Shown here: piece after piece, positions 4,389-54,272 of the stretch
Position numbering within the stretch: position 1 is the first letter of the stretch
How the letters are laid out: every line of letters begins with the position of its first letter
NCBI GenBank assembly: GCA_015499995.1
Contig: JADNRV010000069.1
Location: 202,263 to 266,262 of the forward strand
Length of the DNA stretch: 64,000 nucleotides
Reading direction: 5' to 3'
Source: Flammula alnicola
Lineage: Eukaryota; Basidiomycota; Agaricomycetes; Agaricales; Strophariaceae
Notes under the pieces: model-generated
Databases searched by the model: none
Seen by the model: only the letters and a program-made list of their open reading frames with translations
What the model was told of the DNA's origin: nothing
Made by a program: the position numbers and the translations under genes

Positions 4389-5198
4389 GTTTGCGGCTAC
4401 ATAATAGAGGTCTTTACACCGGGAAGCCTCGGAGAACACGATGTTGCCCGCGCCATCGCTGCTAGTTATCAAGTACTCGGTATCCAAGCTGTTGTCGAAC
4501 AAACTTAGCCCTAACAAATTCTTGTTGGAAGGTCATTCTTAATTCTCACTGTACCGTACTATCTGTCCTATACATCTCTATACATATCCATGCGCCACCG
4601 TACATATATCAAGCTGAAGCCTGATCCTTTCATCTCGAGGTCGAGGTTGTCTGTAAATAGTGTATCTATAGGTCCTATTGCTTGCCTATTGCTCGTCGTA
4701 CTATATTTCTTCAGCGTAATCAATCAGTAATCTTGTCTCATGAAGAGATCAACCTGGGATCGTTTCTAAATCATTTCCGAACCTTTTGGCAATGTTAGCA
4801 GGTCTCTGATTATCGATTGTCTGCGACGATGGGAAGCAAAACCGAAACTTGACCGAAACCGTCAAGCTACAACTGGTATAATTAGAGCGGAGATGCAAGC
4901 AGGTACAGGTGTTGGGATGTTCGGCATTTAGAAATGTTTGAATCTCTGGGCAACCACGACAATGTTTAACAGGTGAGCAGTATTTTATTCTCCAGGAGCC
5001 CAGTGAAGCTTTTGTTCAAATTTTCCATGGCCTAGTCCTCCCTATCGTTCAGCCTGGTTAGCGTCATCTCCTATCTTTGCACAGAATCGTTGATCACGAT
5101 GAGGTCATGCGCTGAGAGTGTGGACCGTGATATTCGAGGACCTGCTTTATAATATTCCCTCGCAGCGACACCCTAAGAATTCAGCCTTACTGTCAATT
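4389..5198. other. Intergenic region between zinc-finger and HAD genes
   Basis: This stretch holds the 3' end of the zinc-finger transcript and the promoter of the dehalogenase gene. I see no coding signal or repeat. Confidence 0.5.
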
Positions 5199-6356
5199 AT
5201 GGACAATGTCAAAGCCTTGATTTTCGACGTGTTCGGGACTGTCGTGGACTGGCGATCCAGCGTGGTCGCAGAGCTTGAGGTACTAGGCAAGCAACACGGG
5301 GTAGCATCAGGTGTGTCTCATACTTGCTTTCAGACTCGGAATTTCAGATGGAGTTGATTGGTTTCTAGACACCGATTGGAACAAGTTTGCTCAACAATGG
5401 CGCAGCGGTTATATCAAGAACACGTCCGTACTCGACCTCCTCCACGCTTCTCGATACTGTGCTGACTCGACCTGTGGTGAAATCCAGACGACGCATTGCA
5501 GCTGGCGCTTCAGGCCCCCTCAATGTAGACGCCATGCACAGAGAGGTCAGCTATTCTCATCTTTGTCGCATGGCATTCATTAATCCAAGTTGTCCTCACT
5601 AGATCCTTGAAGACCTCCTAAGCTCTTCGGAATGGTCCCATATCGGTCCTCTGTGGGATGAAAAGACACGCCAGCACTTGAATCTCGTCTGGCATCGTCT
5701 GAACGGTCAGGACTCCCTTCCGAATTTCATCGAATCAGATTGAGCCAGCAGCTAACCGCGCGACTCATTGAAGGCTGGCCGGATGCTGTCGAAGGTTTAC
5801 ACGCGCTTAAAAAGCAAGCCATCATTGCGACCTTGTCAAACGGCAATGTTCGCCTGTTGATCGACATGGTGATCGCCAGCTCCTTCTCTTCTTCTGGCTA
5901 AGAAGCTTAAATCATATGTCATGTTTAGGCAAAGCACGCCGGCCTGCCTTGGGACATGGTATTCTCCACGGAGCTCTTCAACACTTTCAAACCGTCAGTT
6001 TTATCCTTATCCCATCCTTATTTTACATTCATCATCATCATGCCCCTTTCTAAACAAAAACTGATCCGTTTAATCCCATCAGGAGCCCCAAAGCCTATCT
6101 TGAAGCCATGCGTCACCTATCCCTGCCCCCAGAGAACTGCGCCATGGTGGCGGCACACATCTACGACCTGAGGGCTGCGGGGAGCCTGGGAATGACCACG
6201 ATATATGTGCGCCGGCCACACGAGGACGGCGACGCCATACAGCTGGATCTGGACGTCAAGAGCAAGGAGGACGGCGGAGAGGTGGACTGTGTCGTCGATT
6301 CGTTCACGGAATTGGCCGAGATTCTCGCTCGTGCTGCTCCGGCTGGAGAGAATTGA
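5199..6356 (+). CDS. Haloacid dehalogenase-like hydrolase, type II (L-2-haloacid dehalogenase family)
   Basis: HAD-superfamily hydrolase, probably cytosolic. Type II members remove halide from 2-haloacids, though many fungal ones have unknown substrates. The N-terminus has motif I DVFGTVVDW with the nucleophilic Asp. Later exons give WRSGYIKN, then ASGPLNVDAMHRE, LSNGN (motif II Ser), the PSPKAYLEA lysine region (motif III) and MVAAHIYDLRAAGSLG (motif IV), in the usual order. Several short introns split the gene; the first is 5311-5368, and a phase-1 join gives the DTDWNKFAQQWR segment. Start ATG 5199 is the first Met before motif I, and the stop ends at 6356. Length is about 250 residues, normal for the family. 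Family assignment is strong; true substrate unknown. Confidence 0.85.
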
Positions 6357-7336
6357 GATTGTAGCCTGAAGTGAAGCGGACGGGGTGAGTCAATGTTTGT
6401 ATGTATGTATGAAATATGAAAATAGATTCATGTAGTATCATCCCAAATGAATGGACGAGTTCTCTCCTTCATCTTGGGTAAAGTAATATGCACGCACAAT
6501 CAGTAAGTGGAGTTATCGCAAGCTCCTGGCCATTGGCCATTGGACGAAGCTGTTAGTCAGGGGAAGGAACTGTTCTATAAATATCGACCATGCGTACCCC
6601 GCACTCCAGACAGCGGCAAGAAGTTAGAATGCACAGAGAACGCTGCCTCCAGAACGAATGTATTACAGCCTCGTGCCCCTCCCTGTACTCATAGTCCGGA
6701 AGCTCACGGACTCTTCTCACCTGTCCGTTCTTATCTCACCCCAATTCCATCCTCCATTCGAAGGGGTGTCTATATCTTCTCAGGAGTCAGTGTTCAAATC
6801 TTCGAAGGTTCTTCATGGCCTGTTGCAAAAAGAAACTGCACACATATTATAAATTGTTTTTACAATGCCCTGTATTACACCCAATCCTATATAAAAAAAC
6901 CAAAGCCGTAAACGACAGTAAGTAAATACAGTAAATAGAAAGCGTATAACGTAGATAAGTGTACGAGGCTCAGTCGTTAACTTCATAAAGCGGGGCTACG
7001 TTAATGACATGTACATGGCGAAAAGCATTGGAAGCGATCCCCTTGACCTGTGCGGATAGGTGGTTGCATGTATGATACAGAGAAGACCGAGGTGTGGATG
7101 GTGGTACAGTTCGTGTGCGTGCTCGTCATAGAAGTACACAACGGTCAACGTCTTGAGGGAGGCGCCCATTACAATTGAGTCTACGGGGGTTGGGCGGTTT
7201 CAGCCGCTGGCATCGGGGTTTGCGTGTTCGTATCAAGATGGGGGGTGGTTTCACAGGAATGGAGTATAACGGATTGTATGGAATGATGCCGGCATCTGAA
7301 GGAAGGGGGTAGCCATGATAGATCGAGCAACCAAAA
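6357..7336. other. Intergenic region between convergent HAD and LPMO genes
   Basis: 3' flanks of two convergent genes. Contains a short GTAT microsatellite near 6,400 and a TATA-like stretch near 6,575. The open frames here have no recognisable family features. No gene supported. Confidence 0.4.
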
Positions 7337-8389
7337 TTAATGGATGCTCTGCTCGAAGGCGAGTCTCCGCATGATGCGGCTGAAGTGGCGCGGGCGGACG
7401 ACGAGGAGGTCGGTCCCGTTCGTCGCAGCGCGCTTCTTGATCTTGCAGGTCTTGCCCGACGACGTGGTGGACGACGCGGCAGGTGGGCTCGACGCGGTGG
7501 GCGATGATGTGCTGTTTCCTCCGGCGGTTGTAGGTGTGCCAGAGCCACCGCCAGAGATGAAGCTGGCGATGGGAGGCCCAGGGAAAACGTACGGTGCATT
7601 GGGGTCGAACACGTTGGGGTCGAAGATGCCGGGGTCGTTGTCGCTGTAGGCGCCAGGAAGGCTGACGAGCTCGCTGGCCTGTGGAGCGCCCGTTTGGCTG
7701 CCGCCAACAGTGATCTGGGCGCAGGCGGGGTAGAACTCGGCGCCTCCGAGCGACGTAGCAAGATGCAGAGCGATGATCTCGTGACGTAGGAGGTAGTTTC
7801 CTGGTGCCAGATTCGAGGGAAGGGTAGCAGTAGCCACACCGCCGGTCACTGGAGATGGTTAAAAAAAGCAAAACATAGAGAGAAAATAAAACATACTGAG
7901 ATCAGCCTGAGCCCAGACAGAGTTGTCTCCACTCTTCTTTCCGACCTGTTGGATCTTGAACCACTTGGCGTTGGAGGCATCGAATTTATCGCAGGTGGTT
8001 GAGCCACAGGAGGCCATGTAGGTCAACATGGGTCCAGTGTTATGAGGCCACTATAAATAAAAACGTCGATCCAAGAACGAGAAGGACGATCGAGAAGAAC
8101 GTACGTTGCTCAGATCTTCACCCTTCCAGCTGAAAGTGAGCGCATCTCCGGGATTTGCATTGGCAACCAACGATCCAGCGGTTGCGTTGGGCCCGCAGGT
8201 CAAAGCGACGTTGTCTGCTCCCTTGTTGGGGTCCGGAGTGCTGATCTGTCGGATGATGCTCGGGGAAGTGCTGCCAGCTGGGATATTTCCAGTGAATGCC
8301 TGGCCATTAATGGTGACGGTGCGCAAGAAACCGTGGGCGGATACATAGGCCGCTGTGAAGAGTGGGAAGAAAAGAGATGTAGTTTTCAT
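7337..8389 (-). CDS. AA9 lytic polysaccharide monooxygenase (formerly GH61), secreted
   Basis: Copper-dependent oxidase that cleaves cellulose or other beta-glucans outside the cell. Exons (minus strand) are 8389-8105, 8050-7897 and 7848-7337, with introns of 54 and 48 nt, giving about 316 residues. The first 18 residues form a signal peptide ending YVSA. Cleavage leaves His19 (HGFLRTVTING) at the mature N-terminus, the first histidine of the copper brace. The second histidine is in LLRHEIIALH, and the axial-site tyrosine is in the EFYPACAQI strand. After the catalytic domain comes a Pro/Ser/Thr/Gly-rich tail with a basic end (KTCKIKKR). No CBM1 is present. Very high confidence for the family; regioselectivity cannot be read from sequence alone. 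Confidence 0.95.
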
Positions 8390-32823: not shown

Positions 32824-35800
32824 TCACTCGATCGCCGAAGAGACCTCGGCCAGCAAAGCAGCTTTTTGAGCTGAGCGTGGCTTGAGTCTCAACGAGAATG
32901 GTTCCGGAAAGCTGGTCAAGCCACAGATGCGATGAGATTCAAAATTCGCGAACTCAAGAAATTCACCTACGTGATCGTTCCAGGAGTGTATTCGGACGTG
33001 GGCATCACCTCCTTCCCATTCTCGTCAAGCCCAGGGAGGATATCGCACGTCGCAAGTGTCGTTGCGATGATGGCAAACAACGTTCCCTGTGCAAAATACT
33101 GTCCAGGACACACTCGCCTACCAAACCCAAACAGGAGATCTGTGACTTTGGCCATCTCGGAATCGCTGCCGTTAAAGCGCTCGGGATAAAATTCCTCGGG
33201 ATTTGGGAATACTTCTGGGTCATGAAGCATGTGCCTTGACGTTAATCAGGATGTGGGCGCGATTTCTTCTCTCCAAAAGATACGTACCACACATTGGGCA
33301 AGATCAAGGCACCTTTAGGAAGGTGGAACCCCTCGTAAATGTCGTCTTGAGTAAGAGCATGAGGTATACCTGGTCCAGTAAATCAGAAAGGACGAGTGCA
33401 GCGGACGAAGAAACAAACCAAGAGGGAGGGGAGGTCCACACCGGAAAACCTCCATCATGATGCTTCGAATATAAGGCAAGTTCGGTTTGTCATTGATAGC
33501 AGGTAACCGATCCTTGCTTATGGCAGCGTCGAGTTCTGCTTGAGCTTTCGCCTGAATTCTGGGATACAGTATCATTGCCCTCAGAAATGTCAGCGTAGAC
33601 GAAATGGTCTTGGTACCATTTTATCGGTCACTAGTGCACTGAATATGAAAATCGAGGAGAAAGACTCACAGTTTCCGATCCACCTGCCATGACAGTTATT
33701 GCAGTCCACACCAGACTGTGCTCTTCGTCCTTCGAGAGTTTCCCTCCCGCTTCTTGGATGATTCCTCCACAAAGATTTGGCATCAGACTTTTCCCGGTTT
33801 CCTGACGGGAAATTCAAAGCCATCAGGTTTCATTATGTAAATTCAATGTCACCTCACTTACAAGGTTCTTCTTGCAGCACTCGTAAGGACTCCAGGCTGC
33901 GTCACATATAACCTGACGCCATTCCTCCGCCGCCTTTAGGAAACCAGAGCCTGGCATCCATCGTGGTAAGTACTTAACTAGAGCGTGGATTAATCATTAT
34001 GAGAACTGAGAGCCTGAGGATTTCTCCGAAAGAGCAGACCTACGGGCAGGGACAAAATCGACGAGGAACTTGCCAGGCGTCGATGTCTTGCTAAAAATGG
34101 CGACTGCAGCTAGCGGAGTTGCAAGAATGGGGTCATCTGCAGAGTGCACATAGTATCCATATGTAATTCGGGTAATTATCGTCCCTATCCTCCTGTTTAT
34201 TTTCAAGCCTCAACGTCAGTGAGGCTCGTGCGAATCACCTTCAATTGAAAAACGTACAGCTGAATCTCAGAAACCAGCGACGCTGAGTCCTCGAGCAAGT
34301 TCGAGACGAGAACTGCAGCTTCCTTTTCCTGCAAAGGATAGTATCCTGGGATCATGCTTGGACTGAAGCCTTGAGCGATTATGCGACCATCAGGAAAAAA
34401 CGTCCGGGCCGTAGTTAACTGCCAAGCTTTGTTGTTCGGCATAGGCTTCGGCGGCCGACATTTACACGGCATGCGGTTATGTTGATCTCCGTTGCCTATT
34501 TAGCGTTCCGGGAGCTGTGGCTGATGACACGGTTGTGCATTGTTGCCAGGACATGCAGCTACGTTGTTCGGAATAGCCTTCTCTACGAAAATAGAGACTA
34601 TGATCACTATGAAGGCTACGTATAAATTACTTGCTTAAATCTCCAAGTCAGCAGGTTTTATTATACAGATGAACATATCAGTTATTGCTAGCTTATTACA
34701 TTGCTGTAGGCTACAAGGATTCGAAATGTCGACTCTGATTTTGTGCCGGAGTCAGCCTGAGGCTCGCCGCTCTGCTCTGAGTCTTTTAAATTGGAAGTTC
34801 ATTCTCAATCGAGGACTGCAGCTGATATTGTCCCCTTTGCGAACGTTGGAATCCAGGTTGCTCGAATTCTGTTCAAGTTAGATCAAACTCCGACACACGT
34901 GACTTCGTTGATTGAAGCACAACTTGAACCCGTCGCCAAGTCAACTTGAACCTCCTGTTCTTCCACCTCCACCACCACCGCTATGCGCCTGCACGCCAAC
35001 GGCATACACAACCTTTCACCACCGTGACACATTGCTCTCTTTAGTAGGCCTGGCGTCAACTATGCAACACAACACCTACAAATTATCAAAACAGCAAGCC
35101 TGGCATTGCCGAACAACTGTGAATGCGTGACCGCTATGGTAAGTGGTATGTACTGGAACGGACTCTACACATCTTCACTAACACTCTTTATCCATTGCGC
35201 AGGAACAACGGAATATTTGGCGACCTTGAGAAGTAGCAGGGCCACGGAAATTTTAAGGGTGTATATGGTTGGATCCTGCCAGCCCGGTAAGTTCCAGAGT
35301 CCCTCGAGCGTGAAGTATTGCTGATGCGTCTCTTCAAAGATGTCGGCTGACTCCCAAGCTTATCTGAGTAGAGACCCAATGTATGCCCAACCATCGTTTC
35401 CAACCTTGCTTTGACTGGGCCCCCTCACTTGCTCCTTTGACAGGCTATTTTCTGACAGTGGCCGAGATTTGTTCGCTGCATTGCTTGACAATGCCACGAA
35501 CAATTATCCATCTGCCACTGCCATTTGTGATCAACTGTTGCCTCGTCACATCCCGTCCACCTTGTATGCTTTCGACAGTGCTATCCGGGAATCAGCATGG
35601 AAGTCATAGTAATGAGCGTAATTAGTTTTTCCATAATCTACCTTTTCATTAATTTATTTCATTATCTATTTCCCAATGAGACGTGATCTGTAATTCCTGC
35701 CCTGCACTATCAGGATTCTTAGTAAAAATCCTACCTAGTCTATAGATCAACACATAGACTACGTTAACAATTGTGCTACAATGCTACAGGAACAACGTAG

Positions 35801-36490
35801 ATAAATATAGCAGCACTACGGAGCTACATCGCCCTATATTTTAGGGGGATGTCGACGGGTCTATAAGTGCTATGTATGCTACATTTTACAATGTATACTT
35901 AGGGTTTTTTCCTGATGACGTTGCTTGCGACAATGGTCATCATATGGTTGCAGTACGAAGGACTGGTTTGCACCGACGCTGAACATTTGACTTGAGACCC
36001 AACACTAGCAGTAAAATAGGCCAGTTCACATACAGCTCTCCTGCCATAACCTAAGCACAGTTATGACCATTTAACTTCGGAATTCATAAAACTAGCAGCA
36101 ATGGAGATTGACTCACCATTTGTGGTCGATCGGAATATATGGACGATCTCTTATCCAGTAAATCCTTGGCTATCTTTTCCGAATTTACAACAACCAAGGA
36201 CCGCCCAAACACATTGAGGTGGATAATGTCGCCTAGGGGGGGGGGGAAAGAAGACCTTTAATAAGGCAATACTTCACTCTGAGTCCGATAAATATACCAT
36301 AAGTTTTCTTCCACTCGGATAAGACCAACCAAGGGCGCTCTGTCGGTATTTGATGAGCATTTCCAACGACTGGCAGGCATCGCGGTCCAGGAGGCAGTCG
36401 TTTGTGTTCGGACGATATGTTATAGTAGTATAGGAACAAGCCTCCCAAAACAGCGACCGAGATGAGAGCATTAGATAGCAAGGCGTCCAT
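32824..36490 (-). pseudogene. Cytochrome P450 gene interrupted by inserted DNA
   Basis: Heme monooxygenase gene of the OrdA-like agaric type. Start ATG 36490 gives a membrane anchor (SVAVLGGLFLYYY), LPPGPRCLPVVGNAHQIP and, after an intron ending in a C run, GDIIHLNVFGRSLVVVNSEK and SSIYSDRPQM (36.1 kb). P450 coding resumes only near 34.38 kb with IIAQGFSPSMIPGYYPLQEK. It continues through VWTAITVMAGGSET (I helix), PYIRSIMMEVFR (K helix ExxR), FYPERFNG, the heme loop FGFGRRVCPGQYFAQG, and a last exon SLRLKPRSAQKAA with stop at 32824. The C-helix part (W-R region) is missing, replaced by about 1.6 kb of other sequence. Probably non-functional. Confidence 0.75.
34388..35917. mobile_element. Candidate inserted element inside the P450 gene
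   Basis: Non-P450 DNA between the two halves of the gene. It is bounded by a perfect 13-bp inverted pair, CATCAGGAAAAAA at 34388 and TTTTTTCCTGATG ending 35917. No transposase and no clear target duplication seen, so boundaries are tentative. The sequence near 35,750-35,917 resembles that near 53,370-53,570. Confidence 0.4.
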
Positions 36491-36995
36491 TGAACTGAAA
36501 GGTGGAATAGGACTCGTGAGCAATCCTATCAATAAGTGGCTTGACAGGTTCCTTTCGTGCCGTTGCTATTAATCGGTACCCACGAAGAAGGTTTTGCTGG
36601 GCAATTAAATTGAGTCGAAAATCATACAGTTGTCTTCAATAATATTACATCTGAAAATTCCATATTTCTGGGTCGAACGCGCTGGCACTTAATGCAATGT
36701 AGAGGTCCAAGCAGGTAGAAGTCGAATACAGAGTACATACAAAGTACATACTTACAAAAAGTCCGGAATTACGGCGATCACCGAAGAGCGGCAATTTTCG
36801 CCTTGTTCTCCAGATCATGAATTCCATGCAAATTCCATGCCATTCAACATCTTTTACAGGAACTTTGCGAGTGCGAGCCTCTCTCTATAAAATTATGCTG
36901 TTGCATATCGATGGAGGTCCGCCGGTCATAAACGCCATCCTTTTTGCGTTTAACGTTGCAGGACGTTCAGTAGAATTTCCCACTACCCATGTGAC
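36491..36995. other. Spacer between P450 start and foldback element
   Basis: P450 promoter side, about 500 bp. No gene seen. Confidence 0.4.
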
Positions 36996-37050
36996 ACCTT
37001 GTGTGACTAAGGTGCCATCACTGATGGCATAGCCTCACGAGCTCGTGGTG
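36996..37050 (+). repeat. Left terminal inverted repeat of the foldback element
   Basis: Pairs with 44110-44163 in inverse orientation with a few mismatches and a small gap. Contains two internal palindromes. Confidence 0.7.
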
Positions 37051-37375
37051 GCTATTTTTACCCATTAACAATGGACGAGCTCGTGTTAATTAAGGAATGG
37101 GCAAGCTTGAGGTAGATCAATGGATGAGCTGGCCATCAGGGCCAATGGCGGAGCTGTTTGCCCTTGGATGCATGGACGAGCTCTTGTTCCATTGATGGAT
37201 GAGCTCGTCAAATTGGTGTTTTTGGGCTGGGGGGGGGGAGGATTTTGTCGATATATTATATAGATTCTGCATTACCTCTTGCTCAGTAATATATTGAATT
37301 GCTATGCCGGAGCCATTTTGCATCAGAATTTGCATTGAACGCCAAATCCAGTGATTTCTCAGGGAAACCCTCTGA

Positions 37376-37615
37376 CAAGTGTGTCTGATCTCTAGGGAAA
37401 TATATCTGACTTCCGGAAAAGTGCATTTAACTTCCGGGGAGGTGTGTCTGATCTCCAGGAAAGTGCAGCTGACTTCCAGAAAAGTGTGTCTGACTTCCCG
37501 GGAAATGTGTCTGCCTTCTAGGAAAGTGCATCTAATCTCCGGGGAAGTGCATCTGATCTCTGGGGAAGTGCATCTGACTTCCAGGAAAGTGCATTTGACT
37601 TCCAGGGAAACACAG
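37376..37615 (+). repeat. 21-bp satellite, about 11-12 copies
   Basis: Tandem units of about 21 bp built on AGTGCATCTGACTTCCAGGA. They are diverged but in register, so the frame reads as a 7-residue repeat. Present in the left arm only. Confidence 0.8.
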
Positions 37616-37619
37616 TGAG

Positions 37620-39510
37620 TCTCCTGGAATGTATGCAGAGCTCTGGAGATGCATACAGTCCGCCGGAATGCATGTGGAGCTCTGGAGATGCATGCAGGTC
37701 CCCCGGAATGTATACAGAGAGCTGGAGAGGCTTACATGTCTGCCTAAATTAATACGGAGTCCGGATTTGCTTGTGAATCCGCCAGAATGCACACGGAGCT
37801 CTGGAGATGCTTACATGTCCACCTAAATTAATACGGAGTCTGGATTTGCTTGTAAGTCCGCCGGAATGCACACGGAGCTCCGGAGATGCATGCAGCTCCG
37901 CCGGAATGCACACAGAGGTCCGGAGATGCATGCAGCTCCGCCGGAATGCACACAGAGGTCCGGAGATGCATGCAGCTTCGCCGGAATGCACGCAGAGCTC
38001 TGGAGATGCATTTAGGTCCAGAAAAATTTATGCATAGTGCCAGAGAGGCTTACATGTCTGCCTAAATTAAACTGGAGTCCGGATGTGCTTGTGAGTCTGC
38101 CAGAATGCATGCGGAGCTCCTGAGATGCATGCAGGTCCTCCGGAATGCACGCGGAGCTCTGGAGAGGCTTACATGTCCACCTAAATTAATACAGAGTCCG
38201 GATTTGCTTGCAAGTGCGCCGGAATGCATGCAAAGCTCCGGAGATGCATGCAGGTCCACCGGAATGCACACAGAGCGTTGGAGAGGCTCATATGTCCGCA
38301 TAAATTAATACGGAGTCCGGATTTGCTTGTGAGTCCGCCAGAATGCATGCGGAGCTCTGGAGATGCATACAGGTATGCCGGAATGCACATAGAGGTCCGG
38401 AGATACATATAGGTCAGCCTAAATTAATACAGAGTCCGGATTGCTTGTGAGTCCACCGGAATGCACGAGGAGCTCCGGAGATGCATACAGGTCCACCTAA
38501 ATTTATGCGGAGCTCTGGAGAGGCTTACATGTCTGCCTAAATTAATATGGTGTCCGGATTTGCTTGTGAGTCCGCCAGAATGCGTGCGAAGGTCTGGAGA
38601 TGCATGCAGGTCCGCCGGAATGCACGCAGAGCTCCGGAGAGGCGTACATGTCCACCTAAATTAATACAGATTCCGGATTTGCTTGTGAGTCCGCCGGAAT
38701 GTGTGCGGAGGTCCGGAGATGCATACATGTCCGCCTAAATTAATACAGAGTCCAGATTTGCTTGTGAGTCCGCCGGAATGCATGCAGAGCTCCAGAGATG
38801 CATGCAGGTCCGCCGGAATGCATGCAGAGCTCCAGAGATGCATGCAGGTCCGCCGAAATGCATGCAGAGCTCCAGAGATGCATGCAGGTCCGCCGGAATG
38901 CACACGGAGCTCTGGAAAGGCTTACATGTCCGCCTAAATTAATACGGAGTCCAGATTTGCTTGTGAGTCCGCCGGAATGCACATGGAGCTCCGGAAATGC
39001 ATACAGGTCCACCTAAATTTATGCGGAGCTCCAGAGAGCCTTATAGGTCTGCCGGAATGCACGCAGAGCTCTGGAGAGGCTTCCATGTCCACCTAAATTA
39101 ATACAGATTCCGGATTTGCTTGTGAATCCGCCGGAATGTGCGCGGAGGTCCGGAGATGCATACAGGTCCACCAGAATGCACATAGAGCTCCGGAAATGCA
39201 TATAGGTCCACCTAAATTTATGCGGAGCTCTGGAGAGGCTTATAGGTCTGCCTAAATTAACACAGAGTCCGGATTTGCTTGTGACTCTGCCAGAATGCAT
39301 GCGGAGGTCCGGAGATGCATACAGGTCTGCCGGAATGCACATGGCCCTCCGGAGATGCATACAGATCCACCTCAATTTATGCAGAGCTCCGGAGAGGCTT
39401 ATAGGTCCACCTAAACTTACATAGAGCTCTGGAGAGGCTTAGATGTCTGCCTAAATTAACACGGAGTCCGGATTTGCTTGTGACTCTGCCAGAATGTATA
39501 TGGACCTTGG
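37620..39510 (+). repeat. ~40-bp satellite, left arm
   Basis: Three variants of a ~40-bp monomer alternate. One is marked by CCGGAATGCACRCGGAGCTC, one by CCTAAATTAATACGGAGTCC with GGATTTGCTTGTGAG, one by CACCTAAATTTATGCGGAGC. Together they form higher-order blocks of about 120-160 bp. Confidence 0.85.
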
Positions 39511-40808
39511 GTCTCTAGATTAAAGAACAGACATCTAGGCACACAACAGGCCGGGTCACGTGAAATTGCCAAAGGCACCGAGGACGTGGAGCAGTGGGGT
39601 AAAAGCAGACGCCCATAGATGTGCCTGTAGCAATGCCGATCAAAGCTCAGATCAAAGGGATACCTATTTGGAAATATATACCATATCGGGTATGTCTGGC
39701 TACAGTAAGATGTCCAGGGTGCATAACACGACATACCGAGATCCCAGATGCACACTGAGGGTACTAGGTTACAGGGTACAGTCTTAAGTGCTTAAGTTAG
39801 CTGAACCGAAGGTGATCTGAGCTCCTGATGCATCCAAAAATGCACAATCAAGTGAAAGCACATGGAAACTGTACTCCACAGTCTTCCACCCATGCACAAA
39901 TGCTTATGAATTCTCTATAATCTCGTCATTGTGTCTATGTAATAATATTTAATCTCAGTAGTATACAAGTAGCCCTGTAACACTGTAGAAGACAAGCAAT
40001 TTACCACCCATGAGTTTTGAGCGCTTAAGATCTCATCTAAGGGTTCCGCCTCTAAGGTATTTCAAAAGCAAGTGTCCCAATATAATAAAAAACCAGTAAA
40101 CATTCTAAATAAACTGTCTAAGATAAGATGGCATGCCTAAGTGGTTTACCAAGTTAAAGAAAAGAGAGTTATAAACTGAGGGACTTGTCTAAGTGACTTG
40201 TTCAAAACCACCTATTGTCAAAGGACATCTGGGGACCTGGACTGTAGTGCCAGTAGATGAAAGTGTCTACGTGCCTCTGGCCATCATAGTGTCAGTAGAT
40301 GAAAGTGTCTACGTGCCTCTGGCCATCGTAGTGTCAGCAGATAAGACATCTGTGTGCCTCTTTCCACAAGCATAGTTTTGAGATAAGTTAAAGGGCGTAG
40401 AGCTATCTTCTCAATTGGAGAACAAGTTAAGACAACAAGTTAAGACAAGATCAGATAGCAGTTTGTGCATAGAGCACTTCAGAACACCAGTTATGAATAT
40501 ACACAAGTCTATTGGACTTAAAATGACCTATTGACTATTAGGCACTTGAGACCTTGTCCAAGCCATTATATAGTTAAGAACCTTCTTTTATAGCAAGTCT
40601 ACTATCAGGTATTGATATTATAAAACTATTATCCTCCCCTTGGATGAACTAAGTCAACTAAATATTAATTTGGGTGTTTGAAGTGTAGACTACTAGTATT
40701 AGAAGTGAAGCAAGTTAGATTTGATAGTGATCCTGTTAGTAGACATTACAAAGTCTATTAAATGTGACTACTTTATTATCTAGTAGTTCGCACACACCTG
40801 GTACTAAG
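39511..40808. other. Loop of the foldback element
   Basis: AT-rich, non-satellite DNA between the arms. Holds a 42-bp tandem repeat (about 2.6 copies, 40246-40360). No coding frame of note. Confidence 0.5.
40246..40360 (+). repeat. 42-bp tandem repeat, about 2.6 copies
   Basis: Units begin AGTRYCAGTAGATGAAAGTG and contain GTGCCTCTGGCCATC. The last copy is diverged. Confidence 0.7.
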
Positions 40809-43760
40809 CATGTTTAACAGAGTCTGGATTTGCTTGCGGGTCCACTGAAATTTAAGTGGAGCTCCAGAGATGCTTACAGGTCTGCCTAAATTAACACAGC
40901 GGTCCAGAAATCCTGTTGCAAGCATCTCCAGAGCTCCGCATAAATTTAGGTGGACCTGTATGCATCGCTGGAGGTCCCTGTGCATCCTGGCAGACCTGTA
41001 TGCATCCTCTGCATGCATTCCGGCAGAGTCACAAGCAAATCCGGACTCTGTGTTAATTTAGGCAGACCTATAAACCTCTCCAGAGCTCCGCATAAATTTA
41101 GGTGGACCTATATGCATCTCCGGAGCTCTATGTGCATTCTGGTGGACCTGTATGCATCTCCGGACCTCCGCGCACATTCCGGCGGATTCACAAGCAAATC
41201 CGGAATCTGTATTAATTTAGGTGGACATGTAAGCCTCTCCAGAGCTCTGCGTGCATTCCGGCAGACCTATAAGGCTCTCTGGAGCTCCGCATAAATTTAG
41301 GTGACCTGTATGCATCTCCGGAGCTCCACGTGCATTCCGGCGGACTCACAAGCATATCCGGACTCCGTATTAATTTAGGCGGACATGTAAGCCTTTCCAG
41401 AGCTCCATGTGCATTCCGGCGGACCTGCATGCATCTCTGGAGCTCCGCATGCATTCCGGCGGACTCACAAGCAAATCTGGACTCTGTATTAATTTAGGCG
41501 GACATGTATGCATCTCCGGACCTCCGCACACATTCCGGCGGACTCACAAGCAAATCCGGAATCTGTATTAATTTAGGTGGACATATAAGCCTCTCCAGAG
41601 CTCTGCGTGCATGCCAGTGGACCTGCATGCATCTCCGGAGCTCTGCATGCATTCCGGCGGACTCACAAGCAAATCCGGACTCTGTATTAATTTAGGTGGA
41701 CATGTAAGCATCTCCGGAGCTCCGCGTGCATTCCGGCGGATTCACAAGGAAATCCGGACTCCGTATTAATTTAGGCAGACATGTAAGCCTCTCCAGAGCT
41801 CCGCGTGCATTCCGGAGGACCTGCATGCATCTCAGGAGCTCCGCACGCATTCTGGCGGACTCACAAGCAAATCCGGACACCGTATTAATTTAGGCAGACA
41901 TGTAAGCCTCTCCAGAGCTCTGCATGCATTCCGGCGGACCTGCATGCAAATCCGGAGCTCCACATGCATTCCGGCAGACTCACAAGCAAATTCGGACTCT
42001 GTATTAATTTATGTGGATATGCAAGCCTCTCTGGAGCTCTGCATCCATTCCGATGGACCTACATTCATCTCCGGAGCTCCGTGCACATTCCGGCAGACTC
42101 ACAAGCAAATCTGGACTCTGTATTGATTTAGGCGGACATGTAAGCCTCTCCAGAGCTCCGCATAAATTTAGGTGGACCTGTATGCATCTCCGGAGCTCCA
42201 TGTGCATTCCGGCGGATTCACAAGCAAATTCGGACTCTGTATTAATTTAGGCGGACATGTAAGCTTCTCTGGAGCTCTGCGTACATTCCGGCGGACTCAC
42301 AAGCCAATCTGGCCTCTGTGTTAATTTAGGTGGACATGTATGCATCTCCAGAGCTCCGTGTGCATTCCGGCGGACCTGCATGCATCTCCGGACTTTCTAT
42401 GTACATTCCGGCGGACTTACAAGCAAATCCAGACTCCGTATTAATTTAGGCAGACATGTAAGCCTCTGTGGAGCTCTGCGTGCATTCCAGCAGACCTGCA
42501 TGCAAATCCAGAGCTCCACGTGCATTCCGGCGGACTCACAAGCAATTTCGGACTTCATCTTAATTTAGGTGGACATGTAGGCCTCTCCGGAGCTCCGCGT
42601 ACATTCCGGCAGACCTGCAAGCCTCTCTGGAGCTCTGCGTTCATTCCGGCGGACCTCCATGCATCTCCAGAGCTCCGTGTGCATTCCGGCGGACTCACAA
42701 GCAATTCCGGACTCCATATTAATTCATGTGGACATGCAAGCATCTCATGGAGCTCTGTGTGCATTCCGGTGGACCTGTATGCATCTCCAGAGCTCCACGT
42801 GCATTCCAGCGGACTCACAAGCAATTCCGGACTCCATATTAATTTATGTCGACATGCAAGCCTCTCTGGAGCTCTGCGCCCATTCCGGCGGACCTGCATG
42901 CATCTCCAGAGCTCTACGTCCATTCCGGCAGACTCACAAGACAATCTGGCCTCTGTGTTAATTTAGGTGGAGCTCTACGCCTCTCCAGAGCTCCGCATAA
43001 ATTTAGGTTGCCCTGTATGCATCTCTGGAGCTCCACATGCATTCCTGTGGACTCACAAGCACATCCGGACTCTGGTTTAATTCAGGTGGACCTCTAAGCC
43101 TCTCTGGCACTCTGCATAAATTTACCTGGACCTGTATGCATCTCCGGAGCTCCACGTACATTCCAGTAGACCTGTATGCATCTCCAGAGCTCCATATACA
43201 TTCCAGCAGACTCGCAAGCAAATCCGGAATCTGTGTTAATTTAGGTGGACCTGTAGACATCTCCGGCGCTCCATGTAAATTTATGTGAACCTCTAAGCCT
43301 GTCCAGAGCTCTGGATAAATTTAGGCAGACCCATTAGCATCTCCGGAGCTCCCTGTACATTCCGGCAGACTCACAAGACATTCCGGCAGACTCACAAGAC
43401 ATTCCGGCCTCAGTGTTAATTTAGGTGGAGCTCTAAGCCTCTCCGGAGCTCCATGTAAATTTAGGCAGACCTATAAGCCTCTCCGGAGCTCTGTGTAAGT
43501 ATATGCAGATCTGTAATTGTCTCCGGAGCTGTGCTTAAATTTAGGTGGACCTGTAAGCACATTCGGATCTCTTCTGTTATTTTACGTGGACTCACAAGCA
43601 TCTCTGGACTCCATGTTAATTTAGGCACTGCAGAGCTCTATGTTAATTCAGGTGGACTTGTAAGCAATGAGCATCTCCAGTGCTTGGTGTTCATTTAGAT
43701 AAAATTGCAAGCAACTCCAGAGCTCTGGAATAATTTAGGCAGACCTATCCGGTCTGCCTA
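40809..43760 (-). repeat. ~40-bp satellite, right arm (inverted)
   Basis: Same monomers as 37620-39510 but reverse complemented (GAGCTCCGYGTGCATTCCGG and so on). The first ~110 bp (40809-40920) are still in left-arm orientation, so the switch point is near 40,920. Units decay toward 43,760. Confidence 0.85.
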
Positions 43761-44109
43761 ATTTGACAGACAGGTCTGGAGGTGTTTGCATCTTGAGACT
43801 GAGATGCAGCATGGATTGCAGGTGAAGACCTGATAAATTGACATCCTGGATCAGAAATCTTCCAGACCTTACTCAAATTGAAGTCATCATTCCAGGTTTG
43901 GAGAAGAAAAAAGGTGACGGGCTTGTGAAGAGCTTTGAATAATGAGATGTATTAATAGTATAAATGTTATGATGACTGCCTACAGTACATAAGGAATCCA
44001 CCTAGCAAGCTATTCCAGCATGACAGGCAAGCTTGGCCTTGCTGGCTGGACCTACACGAGCTCGCTTGGCCTCTCACGAGCTCGTCCATCCTGGATGGGT
44101 ATTTTTGGC

Positions 44110-44163
44110 AGCACGAGCTCGTGAGGCTAGGCCATCACTGATGGTACTTATGTCACACAAGGT
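44110..44163 (-). repeat. Right terminal inverted repeat of the foldback element
   Basis: Inverse copy of 36996-37050, ending CACACAAGGT. Confidence 0.7.
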
Positions 44164-44435
44164 AATACACTATATATGGTAATTAGCTACAGAACTTTCT
44201 GAACGTTGATTATATTGCGCAAAAAAAATCGGCAACCCCGAACGCTCGTCGATCCGCTTCCATGATCCAGTGGATACAGAGGATAGCCTTGACAAAATCT
44301 TGCATGAAGAGCAGTATGGTGGAAATATTGAGGAAAGGGTTGTTATGCTCCAAAGCTGATTCATCAGGATGAACATTAGCGATCACTGAAAACATGTGTT
44401 TAGGTGTTTACCTGACATATCACTCCATAGGATCA

Positions 44436-46150
44436 TTACGCAGTTTGTAGAGGCAGAGGCAGCGTCGCTTTCTCAGCGGCTTCAATGGCAGCTTCAATGT
44501 TGTGGACTTCCGAGCCGGAGAGATGACTTTCATCTATTGAGACCGGATTGAAGCGAATGCTTTCGAGCACTCTTGGGGTACGCCCATTCCGATGGGTCAC
44601 TGCTCGATCACCCACCGCTTCAATTGAAGGCATGACGGTGGTGGCAGCTCTTCCTTGAGCGACTTTAGCGATAATAAGATATGGTGATATGACCTAAATA
44701 ATGATAAGCCATTGATAGAACTAGCACCAAAAAAATAATGGAAGCTTACGCATATGTGTGGAAGGATCATGAGTGGGATTTCTAGTGTTGCCAAAGTTCA
44801 GTTCAGTTCAGTTCACAGCCCTTTTGGCCGAACTGCGAACTGAACTTTTTACAGTGTGGACTGGACTGAACTGAACTGTTTAGAACTGGTTCGAACCTGT
44901 TCGAACAGGAGAACAGGTAGAAATTTTTGTTTTGCAATTTTTTAGTCTAATACACAAAAAAAAGGTCCCAACCTACTTTTTGACCTCAAAAAAAATAGAC
45001 CATCACTGCTCTAGTCTATCATAAAATTTTCCTTAGAAGGGTCATAAAGGGTTGTTACAATAAGTATTAACATATTTCAATCTATTTTCATCCAAAAAAA
45101 GTGAATTTTACATGGTTTATTTAGGATTTTATACCTATGTTATTTAACAGTTCAGTTCAGTTCTGACAGTCCGAACTGCAGTTCGGACAGAATTTCCAGG
45201 TTGGCTGAACTGAACAGAACTGAACAGAACTGTCAGTTCAGTTCAGTCAGTTCAGGTTCACTGAGTCTGTTCAGAACTGAACTTTGGCAACACTAGGGAT
45301 TTCCGAGCCATTGGCTTGCTCAAAGAAAAGAACTCCATAAATCCCAGTGAATATCACAATCAGAGCGCAGGATTCGATGCACATAGCCATAATTTGTGCA
45401 TATCCCGAGCCATGTGCAACTCCGAGCAGCTTTCTAAGACGCCTTTGATGGTACGCGAGTCGCAACATGATCAGCAGAGCAAGAATTAGGTTGACTAACG
45501 CCGTCAATGCTGCGAGAGGAAAGGCTTCCAAGATGGGCACTATAAAGAATAATATCGCATTTGCTTATGCGCAATAGAGGTTTCGAGTTAGCTGATATTG
45601 TTATAGCTGATAGGAAAGACTCACCCAAAGACGTAAGTAAGATGAGAGAAAGACAGGTAAAGACGAATATTTGAAGCCGCCGCGATGCTCCTTGGTATAA
45701 GACCAGACAGCGCCAGAGCTATCATCATAGACGTAAAGAAGTTAGCAATCTGTTAGAGACAGTCGTACATTAACCTACCATGAATACATCTGCACCTAAA
45801 ATAGTGAATGGGAGAAATAGGGTACCATTTTGGAAAAAGAATTCGATGATGGCCTGAAAGTCGGACAAGCTAAATATTGCGAAGTCGTCCGGCGCACTCC
45901 TAAATATAACCAGCGTCATACCGACAGTTTCTTGAATCCAGGCCAATGTGCTGAGCAAGAACATGACGGTGATGTAGAAAAAGTTAAAGCCCCTCATCCG
46001 TTTGGAGTATATGTATGGCGTCTTCAGGAGGAGCCGAAAGCAATGGACAAACACCATAATGACAGTGCCGTATGCAACCGATGCAAAAATTGTCCCAATG
46101 AGCAGCAGCTCCCGTTGAATATCCGGACCAGGAACGAGCTGGGCTGACAT
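44436..46150 (-). pseudogene. Fungal seven-helix membrane protein gene broken by a MITE
   Basis: Uncharacterised multi-pass membrane protein of the type common in agarics, with a short outer N-terminus and seven predicted helices. Start ATG 46150 gives MSAQLVPGPDIQRE, then helices such as LLIGTIFASVAYGTVIMVFV, FNFFYITVMFLLSTLAW, TLFLPFTILGADVFM, then IWRCLVLYQ, ALTALVNLILALLIMLRLAY and CALIVIFTGIYGVLFF. The exon is interrupted after GSEIP by the element at 44783-45295. Beyond it the frame resumes as PLMILPHIC before a GTAAGC donor, and a cytosolic tail ends at 44436. The insertion adds stop codons and shifts frame (521 bp net). Ligand or role unknown. Confidence 0.75.
44783..45295. mobile_element. 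hAT-type MITE, 513 bp
   Basis: Perfect 8-bp target duplication GGGATTTC at 44775-44782 and 45296-45303. Terminal inverted repeats start TAGTGTTGCCAAAGTTCAGT, and subterminal GTTCA repeats occur on both sides. TIR form and 8-bp duplication fit the hAT superfamily. No transposase, so non-autonomous. Confidence 0.92.
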
Positions 46151-48995: not shown

Positions 48996-51141
48996 TGTGA
49001 AGTATCTGTGATAACCTTGGGTTACCACGGCGAGAAGACTACCTAGGATATACGGCGACTTACCTTATGAATGGGAGTAGCTGTCCTGAGGATATCCGGC
49101 TACGAGCAAGCAACTATACTTATAGGCAGGTAGAGCATATAATTGACCTTCCGAGCTTCGACAAGGGTTAAACATAGTCTAGCCTCGAGGGTCACCAGGT
49201 TGATACGCGTTTGAGCCTCGTTTAAGCATCGTCGAGCCTTGAAGCCACGCCGCAATGCAGAAGCGGACGTCAGGTGAACAACAGTGGTAGAATGTGACCA
49301 TATTCAAGCAAGGAACCGCGTCAGTGTCCTTCCAGAAAATTGCGATTAACGCCGCAGTGGAAGTTCTCCGTATTCCACCTGTCACTGGAGGAAACGTCGA
49401 TTGTGGTTCTCGTAATAGATAATGTCCCACATCGATAAGAAACGCAAGTTCATAGCATTCCTCTTGTCGAAAACCGGGACTTCAAAAGTCCGGTGTGATT
49501 TGGTGCAGTACATCAGGAAAAAGTCAATTTGGTCATAGTTTCCCGGTTAGCTCTGTTCACCGATATTGCATTGATTGTTCATCATAGACTCGGCCGATGG
49601 AAATATAGTTGCCTAGAGACCACGGCCAGACCTATGTTGGAAATATTGAAATATAGAGTGCCCTGGAAATGATCGAGAGCACTTGATTGTTTGCGAGGTT
49701 AGCTCTATTGGCTATATGTGCAATGAGATACTATGAGTTACTATATATTACTTGGTTGTGCGGGCCGTGGCTGCGCCCGGCATTACGAGTCCTTTAAGGA
49801 GTCCTTTAAGGAGTATATACTAAAGTGGTGGAAGTGGAAGTGGCCAGTGGAAGTCGATGTGGAACTCGGAAATTCCCGAGTTCCACTGGTGCTGTCCTCG
49901 CGCGTCCTGATGCGCCTCCGTCCCGACGTCCCACCACAGAATTGTCCTCTATGATGGGCCGCCATATTCATTTCGAGTTTGTAGCACCAAATGAAAGTAT
50001 AAAATGCACTCTGAATCCTGAAGCAAGGTACAAGCAGAAAAGGCTGGCCAATCAGACATTTGGCATCTCATATCTTCCTATTCCAACGTCTCAGAATGCC
50101 CTTGCTGAACTGATTCCAAGGTGCTCGATCCAAATTTGGATCTTACATATTTAATATGGCACCAATATAACTTTCTAGACATAGATTTATCGAGCTACAA
50201 GTAATTGAATCGTTTACAAGCCTCACTATTATTAAATGAATCGACGCAAATATCATTTTCTACCTCTACAACGTTGTCGAAGCCGAATAGGCGTGGCTCA
50301 TTTTCTTGTTACCTCACATGACCAGGTAACGAGTAAATGAGCCACGTCGACCCAGCAGGATCGCGAGGTATGCCTCCCAGAGATGCACAAATACACAAGG
50401 AGCGGTGGCATTGGCGCTGTTCGGGAAGCGAGGGGTGCGGGAATGGCGGGAAGAGGTGCGTGTGCCGCGAAACTCAAGAGTGGAGGTGGAACCGGCAGCC
50501 TGGTGGAAGTCATGTTCCGAGTTTCATTCATGTTCACAGGTTTGTAGTGCGGGTGCAGAGTTGCTGCTGCTGCTGCCGGCCTTCCTTGGCATATCGAAAC
50601 AACGGCGGCAGTTCGCTGGTTGCTGGTCCTCCTCGTCATATCAAGAGAGCAGCGGCGGTTTCTGACAGACAGTCAAAGGCAGACAGGGCTGCTGGCGGTA
50701 GGTTGACGGTCGCGGGTGGCTGTCAATCATCTGTGCTCGCAGTTGTCCGTGCTCGGGGTGTCCATGCTTACGGTCGTCCATCATCCCTGCTTGTGTTCAC
50801 CCGTTCGCCATCGCTATTAGCGATCGCCGTTTGTGGTCGCTGTCCGCGCTGTGCTCACAGATGCTGCTCGAGCTCAAAGGATGCATCCAATATTGCGAGC
50901 TGGGCTGAGATGCAAGAGACAGATCGTGTGAATTTACTTTCCGCGAGTGACATGGCGCTGAGTCCAGACCGGACAATGATGTGATGCCATCGATATTATA
51001 TTATAAATACAAAGATGCCATCAACAAAGATGCCATCACTCCAAAATAGGAAGGTTGTTCCTGCGGTATTCCAAGCGTAACGCTTTTTTCTGCGGAGGGT
51101 TCGGTAAAAAGGACGATTCCTATAAATAGGACTCGTAACTA
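48996..51141. other. Gene-poor region left of the Helitron
   Basis: Oxidase promoter, then about 2 kb without a supported gene. A duplicated GGAGTCCTTTAA stretch lies at 49,790-49,812. The 50,337-50,984 frame is GC-rich but has no family features. Confidence 0.4.
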
Positions 51142-51706
51142 CTAGCCTGTGACCCGTGCTTCGCACGGCATGAATCTTTTTGTCCAATTGAACCAAGATT
51201 GAATTTATTGGAAAAATAAATTCCAATAGTCGCCCTTCCCCTTCAAAGCGCCGCCGCGCGTAGGCGCGGCATCGCCTTGAGCGGCTCATGGCTTCAAGTT
51301 CCTTGGGGACCTGGTATCCAGAACCATGTAACTCTACTTTGTCAGTCTCAGTGTTGTCCATCATCCAACACCCTTCTTCAGATGCCAGTGTAGCCTTCCA
51401 GAGTAAGTACAAATACCACTGATCAAATAGGATCCTTGTAGATATGCTAATACGGTACAGCCTCGAGCACACCCTGTGGCATCCACTGAGAGTTGCCACG
51501 CACGACATTCTGATTGTCAACCAAGCCTGGTTGAAGCCTGGCCAGTGGCAGTGTCGATTGAGTCGCAATTGAGCGGCGTGCGCGTGAGGTCTGGAGTCTG
51601 GCCAGCCAATGTTAGAGTTTGCACCGCCATTGGTGGTTTGTCTCAACCAATCGGAAGACATATTTGTCCCCCCGTGAGAAATACCGTTGTCATATTATAA
51701 TATAGA
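51142..51706 (-). mobile_element. Short non-autonomous Helitron
   Basis: On the minus strand the 5' end is TCTATATTATAA at 51706. The 3' end has a perfect hairpin CCGTGC-GAA-GCACGG, 8 nt, then CTAG at 51145-51142. Flanking bases are A (51707) and T (51141), so the insertion lies between A and T, as expected for Helitrons. Only 565 bp, no Rep/helicase. Confidence 0.8.
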
Positions 51707-52693
51707 TGAGGCTTGAAGTCTGGACAGCAATGACAAGAGGCTGATTATGTTTAATTTTATTTCAAAGTTCAGTGCACAAGTACATAAATGAAGAGTAAGT
51801 AACCTGAAGATGCACCAGCATTGGGAGGCATTGGGAAGCATCCGGCAGAGACGCAATTGTGCTCCAGGTCTCCCAGAAATTGGAAAATATTCAAAGTCGC
51901 CAGAACTGAACGCGGCACATCACGTGATGGTTGATGTCCCAAAGTGGTAATTGTTGGACCCGCCACTTTTCGTTGCTTGCCTCCTGCTCTCATCTCCCAT
52001 CTTGTCCACCACCAAACTTTCACCAATGCTGGCCACACTGGTTAGTTGGCAATACAGTACGGTGTCTTGTGATTCCTAATCTCTGGCTTCGCTCCCTATT
52101 CTGCAGATGGTGTGCAAGCCAAGATAAGAGAACCGTCATTCACGCCATGAGCAGCGCCGTAAGCACAGCTGACCGTCTTCACGTTCTTTTCTGTTCTTAA
52201 TTGTTTCTGCATGCTACCATCATGGATTCCCCCACAGTGCCCATCCTCTTGCGAATCTATGATGGCTTCCACAGTTTGCATAGAGCGGTATGTTTCAATT
52301 TCTCTATTGTAGTGCCAGTATTGATACGTTGTGTGGTTAGGTTAATATCTCCTGTGCTGCGATGGCAGTGGAACATTGCGATGACCATGATTGTTGGAAT
52401 GGAAGCCATCGTTGTCTGGGATCCCCAGACAACATAGGCTGTAGGTGGCAGTATGTCGGAAGACCTCGGAAGGGAGATATCAATGATTGGAGAGCGAACC
52501 TCATTCAACTTCGGAAGGTGGAGTTTTTTTTTCATATTCTATGGCTCTGCTGATGCTTTTTCTTTCAATGCAGGATCTCGTCGACTATCTCCACGGATGA
52601 TCCTATGTTATCTTTTGCTGCTGCCACCCCTCTGCGCTGCCATAGGCATTCGAATTTCATCCACTGTGTGCCTTTTCTAGTCCCCTTGCTACC
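51707..52693. other. Region between Helitron and truncated P450
   Basis: Short spliced-looking frames (52,025-52,110; 52,222-52,290) have splice-like borders but no recognisable product. No gene supported. Confidence 0.35.
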
Positions 52694-53165
52694 ATGACTA
52701 GCACTTCCGCTTGGGCCGCGCTCACCAGCCTTCTCGTCACCCTTTTCCTGTGGTTTCGAAAGCCTAAAGCTTCCTCGGCACCTCTTCCCCCAGGCCTGAA
52801 GCCCGTCCCGCTATTGGGCAATGTCAGGTATCTCACATTGAAGGAGCTGTGGTTGCCCGCGTCCAAGTGGGCGAAGCAGTACGGTTAGTCTTTTGACCTT
52901 CAGCATATGCGCGCGAGTGGCTGACGGTCTTCCCCTTGCCCCCTGTTCAGGCGATGTCGTGTACTTGAACCTTCTTGGGATTGGCCTCGTCTTTGTCAAC
53001 AGCCCCGAGGCTGCCTCTGAGCTGCTGGACAAGCGTGGGTCCATCTATTCTGATAAGTCATCCATGGTCATGCCAGGCGAGCTGTGCGTATTCCTTTCAC
53101 CCGTGCCACTGTTAGTTCTCTAAACTTGTGTGCTTCTTCCCGACAGATGCGGGTGTAAAAACATG
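52694..53165 (+). pseudogene. Truncated cytochrome P450, N-terminal exons only
   Basis: Start ATG 52694 gives a membrane anchor (WAALTSLLVTLFLWF) and PLPPGLKPVPLLGN. After an intron comes GDVVYLNLLGIGLVFVNSPE and GSIYSDKSSMVMPGEL, then a short third exon LCGCKNM ending at a GTGAG donor (53166). Nothing after it resembles P450: C helix, I helix, ExxR and heme loop are all absent. It is homologous to the first exons of the two other P450s here and breaks near the same point as the one at 32.8-36.5 kb. Confidence 0.85.
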
Positions 53166-54272
53166 GTGAGATTCCCTTCCTGTCCGATCCATTTCACTTC
53201 AATCCTATTCCCCCGGGTCGAACCAAGATCGCCACAGCGAACTGAGTAACGTCATTAGACTGGCGAGGATTTAGATTAGTACTAATTCATGTATTCATCC
53301 CCCCTGAAAAATATACAATTGCCATTTTGCTTTCCTTAACAAATCTCTTGAGCACTGTCGAGGTCTATAGCTAACAATAAAGACAATGATACAATGAGTT
53401 TACATGTATGCCATAGAGCCTATGGCCAACTCTATAGTTGTCCATAGCACTTCATTGCAAACGTGACAAACTATGGATCACAATATAACAAGGGGCTTGC
53501 AACGGAGCTATGGGCGCTATGTAGGCTATGTTGGTCTCAATATACTTCTGACTTTTTCCTGATGTACTGTACCCTGAAGGATATCGATATCAGTGATAAA
53601 CATTAGCACATTGACAAAAGCCTTTTAAAGCTTACAATTGCTGATACGTTAGGACCTGCTGCTCCGAAACGAATGGATTGAGTACCTCCATGTCAGCAGA
53701 GGCGAGTCAAATTAACTTACTTTTCCTTGAACAAGCAGAAATAAACCCCGGCCATCTTTCTCTCAAAGAGCGAGATGTCATTAATGTTCCAATCTTGGAC
53801 TTCAACTAGGTCAATCTCCTGGTTAACGCTTCTGGTTTATGGAATCTGTCAAGAGAATAAAGCACATGAGGATGCGCTGTGGGAGGTGTACCGTTGACCC
53901 TGACAGGTGCAAAGCCATGCAAACACTGACGTAAATAGTGGACAATCACAATGACATCCAGGCACTACCCAATGACCAACAACGGTGAAACTTCTCAACT
54001 GGAACAGTGGAACCTGCCAAACTTCTATCTTCTGACGAACATGACCACCTCATTTCTCGAGAAACCAGCTGACTGCCGTCATACGTTTACGTTGACAGCT
54101 TCAAATTTAACCCCACGCGAGGAGTATAAATATTGCAGCTTCGCGCATCGATATCTATCGATATTAGCACAGCCAGCGCTGTGAAGTTTTATTGAACAAA
54201 AGCAAAAGTTAGTCTCTTATCAACGTGTTCTAGAATTTATCGTGATGCTGATGAAGTTAACTCGTTTCAGCC
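53166..54272. other. AT-rich repeat-like region after the truncated P450
   Basis: Sequence at 53,370-53,570 rich in CTATGG/CTATAG motifs and ending TTTTTCCTGATG resembles 35,750-35,917. Probably remnant mobile DNA plus the promoter of the FAD oxidase. Confidence 0.4.

Follow-up and report, generated by a model that had tools for sequence, protein, structure and literature searches.

A foldback-shaped element with inverted satellite arms in Flammula alnicola, very probably a non-autonomous derivative of a Kyakuja-like KDZ transposon

What kind of transposon carries a satellite in two opposite orientations? The question is raised by a stretch of 64,000 nucleotides from Flammula alnicola (contig JADNRV010000069.1, positions 202,263 to 266,262), hereafter called the window, in whose own coordinates all positions are given. 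An earlier note on this DNA read positions 36996-44163 as a basidiomycete foldback family. Our analysis bore out a transposable element of foldback layout but did not support a self-standing family. The inverted-satellite structure exists, occurs in multiple copies and has moved recently. It has the ends of a family of 15-16.6 kb KDZ elements found in the same genome, so that "foldback" names its shape and not its superfamily. Judged from sequence, the window element is very probably a foldback-shaped, non-autonomous offshoot of a Kyakuja-like KDZ element with a TET gene.

To delimit the element, its copies were compared in the window's own assembly (G000, 74.4 Mb in 861 contigs). The inverted repeats of about 50 bp, once taken for the termini, are real but subterminal: 36996-37085 (plus strand) matches 44075-44163 (minus strand) at 81%. 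They were rejected as the true ends, since conservation among copies continues 37-38 bp beyond 36996 and 44163 and halts at 7-bp target duplications. For this reason the element is placed at 36959-44201, with borders common to the copies and a length of 7243 bp. It is flanked by the duplication AACGTTG at 36952-36958 and 44202-44208, and it starts and stops with an imperfect terminal inverted repeat (TIR) of 15 bp, 12 of them identical (36959-36973, plus strand; 44187-44201, minus strand). The outermost bases are CAG...CTG in the window copy and in the complete copies, in agreement with the CA..TG termini discussed below.

Has this element moved? Further copies were found with both termini in the search that the earlier note had proposed: there are at least 26 left-end and at least 19 right-end matches at 87-100% identity. 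These counts are lower bounds, 40 of 45 candidates having been scored in each search, and the remaining matches are the opposite end at 78-82%. All ten complete short copies are flanked by perfect 7-bp target duplications, and all ten duplications are different. An empty site, also looked for, is present on contig C290. Both flanks of the element match this contig in each of two segments, duplicated in tandem, and the matching pieces share exactly 7 bp. When the window flanks are joined with one AACGTTG, they align to these two paralogues at 92% and 90%, with small gaps elsewhere. We infer that C290 is probably the other haplotype and the insertion polymorphic, because wherever window 27000-60000 was tested the contig is collinear with it at 93-98%, or at 90% in the second segment, where the pieces are short.

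The comparison with C290 gave some side observations on the neighbourhood. At C290:330100-332800 (L044) the surroundings of the empty site are present as a tandem duplication, which the window locus does not have. The collinearity is broken by further insertions in the window. At 34388-35917 there is a 1.5-kb insertion, absent from C290 and found at two other places at 100% (C612 and C122). It has the termini CATCA..TGATG and a 2-bp AC duplication, features described for PlavakaB transposons in PMC12730594. About 0.5 kb at 44783-45296 is missing from C290, where the flank matches overlap by 8 bp, and looks like another small transposon insertion beside the element. About 4 kb at 49512-53563 is missing as well, with flank matches overlapping by 4 bp; it is built of pieces present at many other places, and is therefore a set of nested insertions. 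For one protein encoded in the window, the closest named matches come from Agaricales, with Cyclocybe at 44% over 24% of the query and Pholiota and Agrocybe at 29%.

To which family do the ends belong? The window element itself is non-coding, so its KDZ membership has to be judged by its ends. They are common to three complete long copies, C281 (14,876 bp), C257 (16,578 bp) and C314 (14,791 bp). At the left, the first 393-414 bp are 88-90% identical (36959-37372, plus strand); at the right, the last 217-333 bp are 81-92% identical (43985-44201, minus strand, with 217 bp at 92% to C281 and 333 bp at 81% to C257). The satellite of the window element is found in none of the three. A genome search placed the KDZ transposase domain PF18758 inside all three long copies, together with Tet_JBP PF12851 above the cut-off, which the window element lacks. 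C281 has 21 open reading frames (ORFs) of at least 150 aa; seven of them were scanned against Pfam, giving one Tet_JBP match (E 3.5e-15), one CxC2 match (PF18803, E 1.2e-21; shown in C281 only) and five without a match. Thus the KDZ transposase and the TET/JBP oxygenase come through the long copies that share the ends. According to Kojima 2025 (PMC12730594), TET-positive Kyakuja elements of Agaricomycetes have 7-bp duplications, 5'-CA..TG-3' termini and no TIRs. The 7-bp duplications are present here, perfect in two of the three complete long copies (C257 and C314) as well as in the ten short ones. In the whole assembly there are 119 KDZ domain matches and 32 Tet_JBP matches, 26 of them above the cut-off, and on these predictions the genome appears rich in TET-bearing KDZ transposons.

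How is the interior built? Tandem Repeats Finder (TRF) reports two arrays of one monomer family of about 40 bp in opposite orientation, with a non-satellite centre between them, and on this point the earlier note was right. The left arm (37627-39508, plus strand, TRF) holds about 47 monomer lengths, and the right arm (40912-43760, minus strand, TRF and self-alignment) about 72. In the best self-alignment in inverted orientation, 37615-39400 lies against 40920-42698, with 82.7% identity over 1795 columns. Of the 12-mers of the left arm, 73% are found again in the right arm when it is reverse-complemented and 0.3% in the same orientation, against at most 0.05% in five shuffles. When the inner 800 bases of each arm were folded with the loop as RNA, 81% of the left-arm bases were predicted to pair with the right arm, versus 6% pairing across the loop in a control with the right arm not inverted. 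Hairpin stems of 2-3 kb had been proposed, but the collinear stem reaches only about 1.8 kb at about 83%. From left to right, the element consists of the shared end, a 21-bp tandem array (37377-37610, plus strand, TRF) that occurs on this side only and is absent from the long copies, the left arm, a fragment resembling a long terminal repeat (LTR), a 94-bp stub, the right arm and the shared end. Long inverted tandem-repeat arms around a loop are what is expected of a foldback element, and their length differs among copies, but they are not TIRs reaching the ends: they stop 668 bp short at the left, the 21-bp array included, and 441 bp short at the right. Taken on its sequence, the window element would work like a foldback element in shape, with arms that do not reach the ends, and would belong to the KDZ superfamily by its ends.

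The centre is more than a simple 1.3-kb loop. It is indeed non-satellite, but it consists of the LTR-like fragment (39509-40817) and, behind it, a 94-bp stub of left-arm repeat (40818-40911, plus strand), which may mark the original junction of the arms. The arms presumably adjoined at first, and the loop would be a later insertion into one of them, inherited by the copies. With the best 40 of 260 candidates scored, the loop sequence has at least 12 matches at 95-100%, one of them the window and the others 11 further copies, and at least 28 more at 78-80%. Our reading is that the loop is the LTR of a Ty3-like retrotransposon, on the basis of a purine tract and a Gag-like stretch rather than of a database match. 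Related sequence in C516 and C36 is part of a repeat of about 1.8 kb that adjoins further shared sequence. C516 (L045) has two mutually inverted copies of this repeat at positions 3527-7822, which are separated by a 742-bp spacer and 99.8% identical over 1777 bp. C36 (L030) was considered as a second flipped loop and rejected: its loop is a related repeat, about 79% identical, that interrupts the arm directly, and the sequence after it is also found beside the same repeat in C516.

How far have the copies diverged? Outside the arms, ten complete copies differ by 0.25-1.4% (mean 0.82%, 2337 gap-free columns). CpG transitions make up 34 of the 81 changes, a share that fits methylated cytosines without proving them. 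The arms vary widely in length, from 1246 to 2038 bp at the left and from 2255 to 3395 bp at the right with the stub counted in; the longest (C368) contains extra sequence. There is a correlation between left and right lengths (r 0.74, n=10), for which shared descent may be the reason. In C434 (L021) the loop and stub are inverted, alone among the 12 loop-bearing copies. The inner 200 bp of both its arms resemble the opposite arm in nine of nine comparisons, while for the other nine copies the inner arm ends do so in one of nine, presumably the comparison with C434 itself. Crossing-over between an element's two arms leaves such a pattern, the alternative being a flip made by the assembler. C139 (L020) has a tract of 200-300 bp of right-arm sequence within its left arm. 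Several arm-bearing copies are incomplete: the outermost left end is missing from C40 and the left end from C102, C48 is cut off by the end of its contig, and C36 has an interruption. In C30 nothing but the left end and a portion of the 21-bp array is present.

Could the element be a foldback of a classical superfamily (Mutator/FB or P/Galileo) that merely resembles the KDZ copies at its ends? The layout is that of a foldback, and 7-bp duplications are known from Galileo of the P superfamily too (PMC3573991), so that the superfamily cannot be told from the length of the duplication by itself. However, the homology at the ends runs over 393-414 and 217-333 bp to copies with KDZ and TET/JBP domains, and the seven C281 ORFs scanned, of 21, gave Tet_JBP and CxC2 only, no element-wide or genome-wide search for P or Mutator domains having been made. 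We regard a classical superfamily as extremely unlikely. An artefact of repeat assembly, whether behind the inverted arrangement as a whole or at least behind the flipped loop of C434, is also hard to believe. The assembler evidently struggled with this family, because many copies lie near or at contig ends, and inverted arms of 1.2-3 kb can be mis-oriented. Still, both arms are found in ten independent copies with unique flanks and 7-bp duplications that match, and 11 of the 12 loops have one orientation, which leaves the flip of C434 alone open to such a reading.

Then where did the arms come from? They might be a pre-existing host satellite that the transposon captured, rather than its own product, and the long copies offer no clear source for the monomer. 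Against their interiors, the two 40-bp units scored no higher than ten shuffles; the 39-bp unit scored 1-2 points above shuffles in two of three copies, and the 21-bp unit 26-31 versus shuffle maxima of 22-24 (2-9 points above) in all three, both too weak to use. An origin of the repeats in the long-copy interiors thus gave no usable signal in this shuffle-controlled comparison. On the other hand, the matches listed for a 429-bp arm piece (part of a total of 176, all 27 candidates scored) fall without exception on 14 contigs holding copies, and no free satellite array outside copies was seen among them; we think capture improbable. Another explanation is selection: the arms may have been kept for multiplying transposase binding sites, as proposed for Galileo, whose arms hold extra THAP sites (PMC3688188). 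Candidate transposase sites here would be the ACGAGCTCGT palindromes. Four lie in the ends of the window copy, two of them in its left end, and four in the ends of each long copy; they are absent from the long-copy interiors, the arms and the rest of the window. Their centre, GAGCTC, occurs 65 times in the arm slices versus 12 times in the other 56.8 kb of the window. However, CGAGCTCG is absent from the arms, and the commonest terminal hexamers, AGCTCG and ACGAGC, are absent from the monomer units; the overlap in GAGCTC could be chance, the units holding 90 of 2080 hexamers. Since the arms share only the inner GAGCTC with the palindromes, the Galileo model is possible but weak, and we think it unlikely. 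That the arms are copies of the terminal palindromes is mostly ruled out by the same missing motifs. One might also imagine that the CpG-bearing arms, transcribed or extruded as hairpins, feed host silencing and that the TET/JBP oxygenase of the partner reverses the methylation, the element then being a decoy passenger and its arms a built-in inversion switch; this is a speculation to which we give very little credence.

The reading of the window element as a Kyakuja-like KDZ derivative gives the following scenario. An internally deleted KDZ element of about 15-16.6 kb would have kept both ends, to which the end homology, the duplications and the empty site point. As the anatomy suggests, the 40-bp sequence may have grown in tandem and then undergone inverted duplication in a founder before its spread, with an LTR landing near the centre afterwards. 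The founder would have spread recently with the KDZ transposase of the long family acting in trans, which again is consistent with the end homology, the duplications and the empty site. Since then the arms may recombine with each other, change in length and occasionally flip the loop.

Several points weigh against this scenario. Arms taken from one copy resemble each other no more than arms taken from different copies do (0.378 vs 0.388, p 0.88), which disfavours frequent arm-to-arm exchange. A general homogenisation of the two arms of a copy is ruled out by the same comparison, and the single events in C434 and C139 remain. The ends of short and long copies differ by about 8-19%, therefore no sequenced long copy is the close source. 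C281 has unlike 7-bp flanks; possibly it is a recombinant or an assembly chimera, like the chimeric Galileo copies. As a side observation, its right flank opens with the same 14 bases as that of C257, although an ungapped comparison of the two matches at only 139 of 291 bases. Furthermore, absence of TIRs is described for two Kyakuja families (PMC12730594), while the window element has the 12/15 TIR and the 81% subterminal repeat; in its other features the agreement with Kyakuja is good. The placement in Kyakuja as against Zisupton or Dileera would rest on duplication length and termini.

How does the element compare with known systems? The TET-positive Kyakuja transposons of Agaricomycetes described in PMC12730594, such as Kyakuja-1_LB, share the 7-bp duplications, the CA..TG termini and, with the long relatives, KDZ and TET/JBP. 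They differ in having no TIRs, whereas the window element is non-autonomous with a short imperfect TIR and inverted satellite arms; the words "foldback" and "tandem repeat" do not occur in the main text of that paper. The KDZ1-3 elements of Cryptococcus neoformans (PMC12810828) are also KDZ members mobile in a basidiomycete, but they are coding elements of about 9-11 kb with TIRs of 139-241 bp, CxC1 and duplications of 4-8 bp, and the matched passages of that paper mention no foldback form. Galileo of Drosophila (PMC3573991, PMC3688188) resembles the window element in its long inverted arms with internal tandem repeats of varying number, its 7-bp duplications and its chimeric copies with unlike flanks. 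It belongs to another superfamily, its arms, 0.5-1.2 kb long, are true TIRs that extend to the ends, and its tandem repeats (units of about 210 bp in the F group) are part of the arm, while the arms of the window element are nearly all 40-bp units. Tetris of Drosophila virilis (PMC4079207) is likewise non-autonomous with tandem repeats in inverted arms and satellite-like growth. It differs by units of 220 bp, duplications of 8-10 bp, a probable Mutator affiliation and the lack of an autonomous partner as reported there; its repeats also form free satellite arrays, in contrast to the matches listed here. Drosophila FB4 (PMC4022104) has variable-length long inverted repeats and a loop that differs between copies, and FB elements differ from the window element in superfamily, termini and repeat sequence.

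What does the finding mean for this transposon family? According to PMC4079207, the Mutator superfamily takes in most foldback elements, Galileo being among the exceptions, and Tetris has no known autonomous partner; the same source suggests that the foldback shape evolves independently from different lineages. No report of this shape in KDZ elements or in fungi was found in the open-licence literature, subscription papers and Repbase being outside the scope, and Zisupton does not appear in the main text of the foldback paper PMC4022104. In contrast to Tetris, the element studied here has a candidate partner family in the same genome, with ends defined to the base. Arm length already differs among its copies, whose divergence elsewhere is below 1.5%, and a changed loop orientation and an arm-to-arm tract are each seen once. 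The copies form a natural series for asking how the interior of a transposon becomes an inverted satellite, and they bear on the question whether a KDZ transposase can move a palindromic load. The element suggests that this transposon family can produce hairpin-shaped passengers.

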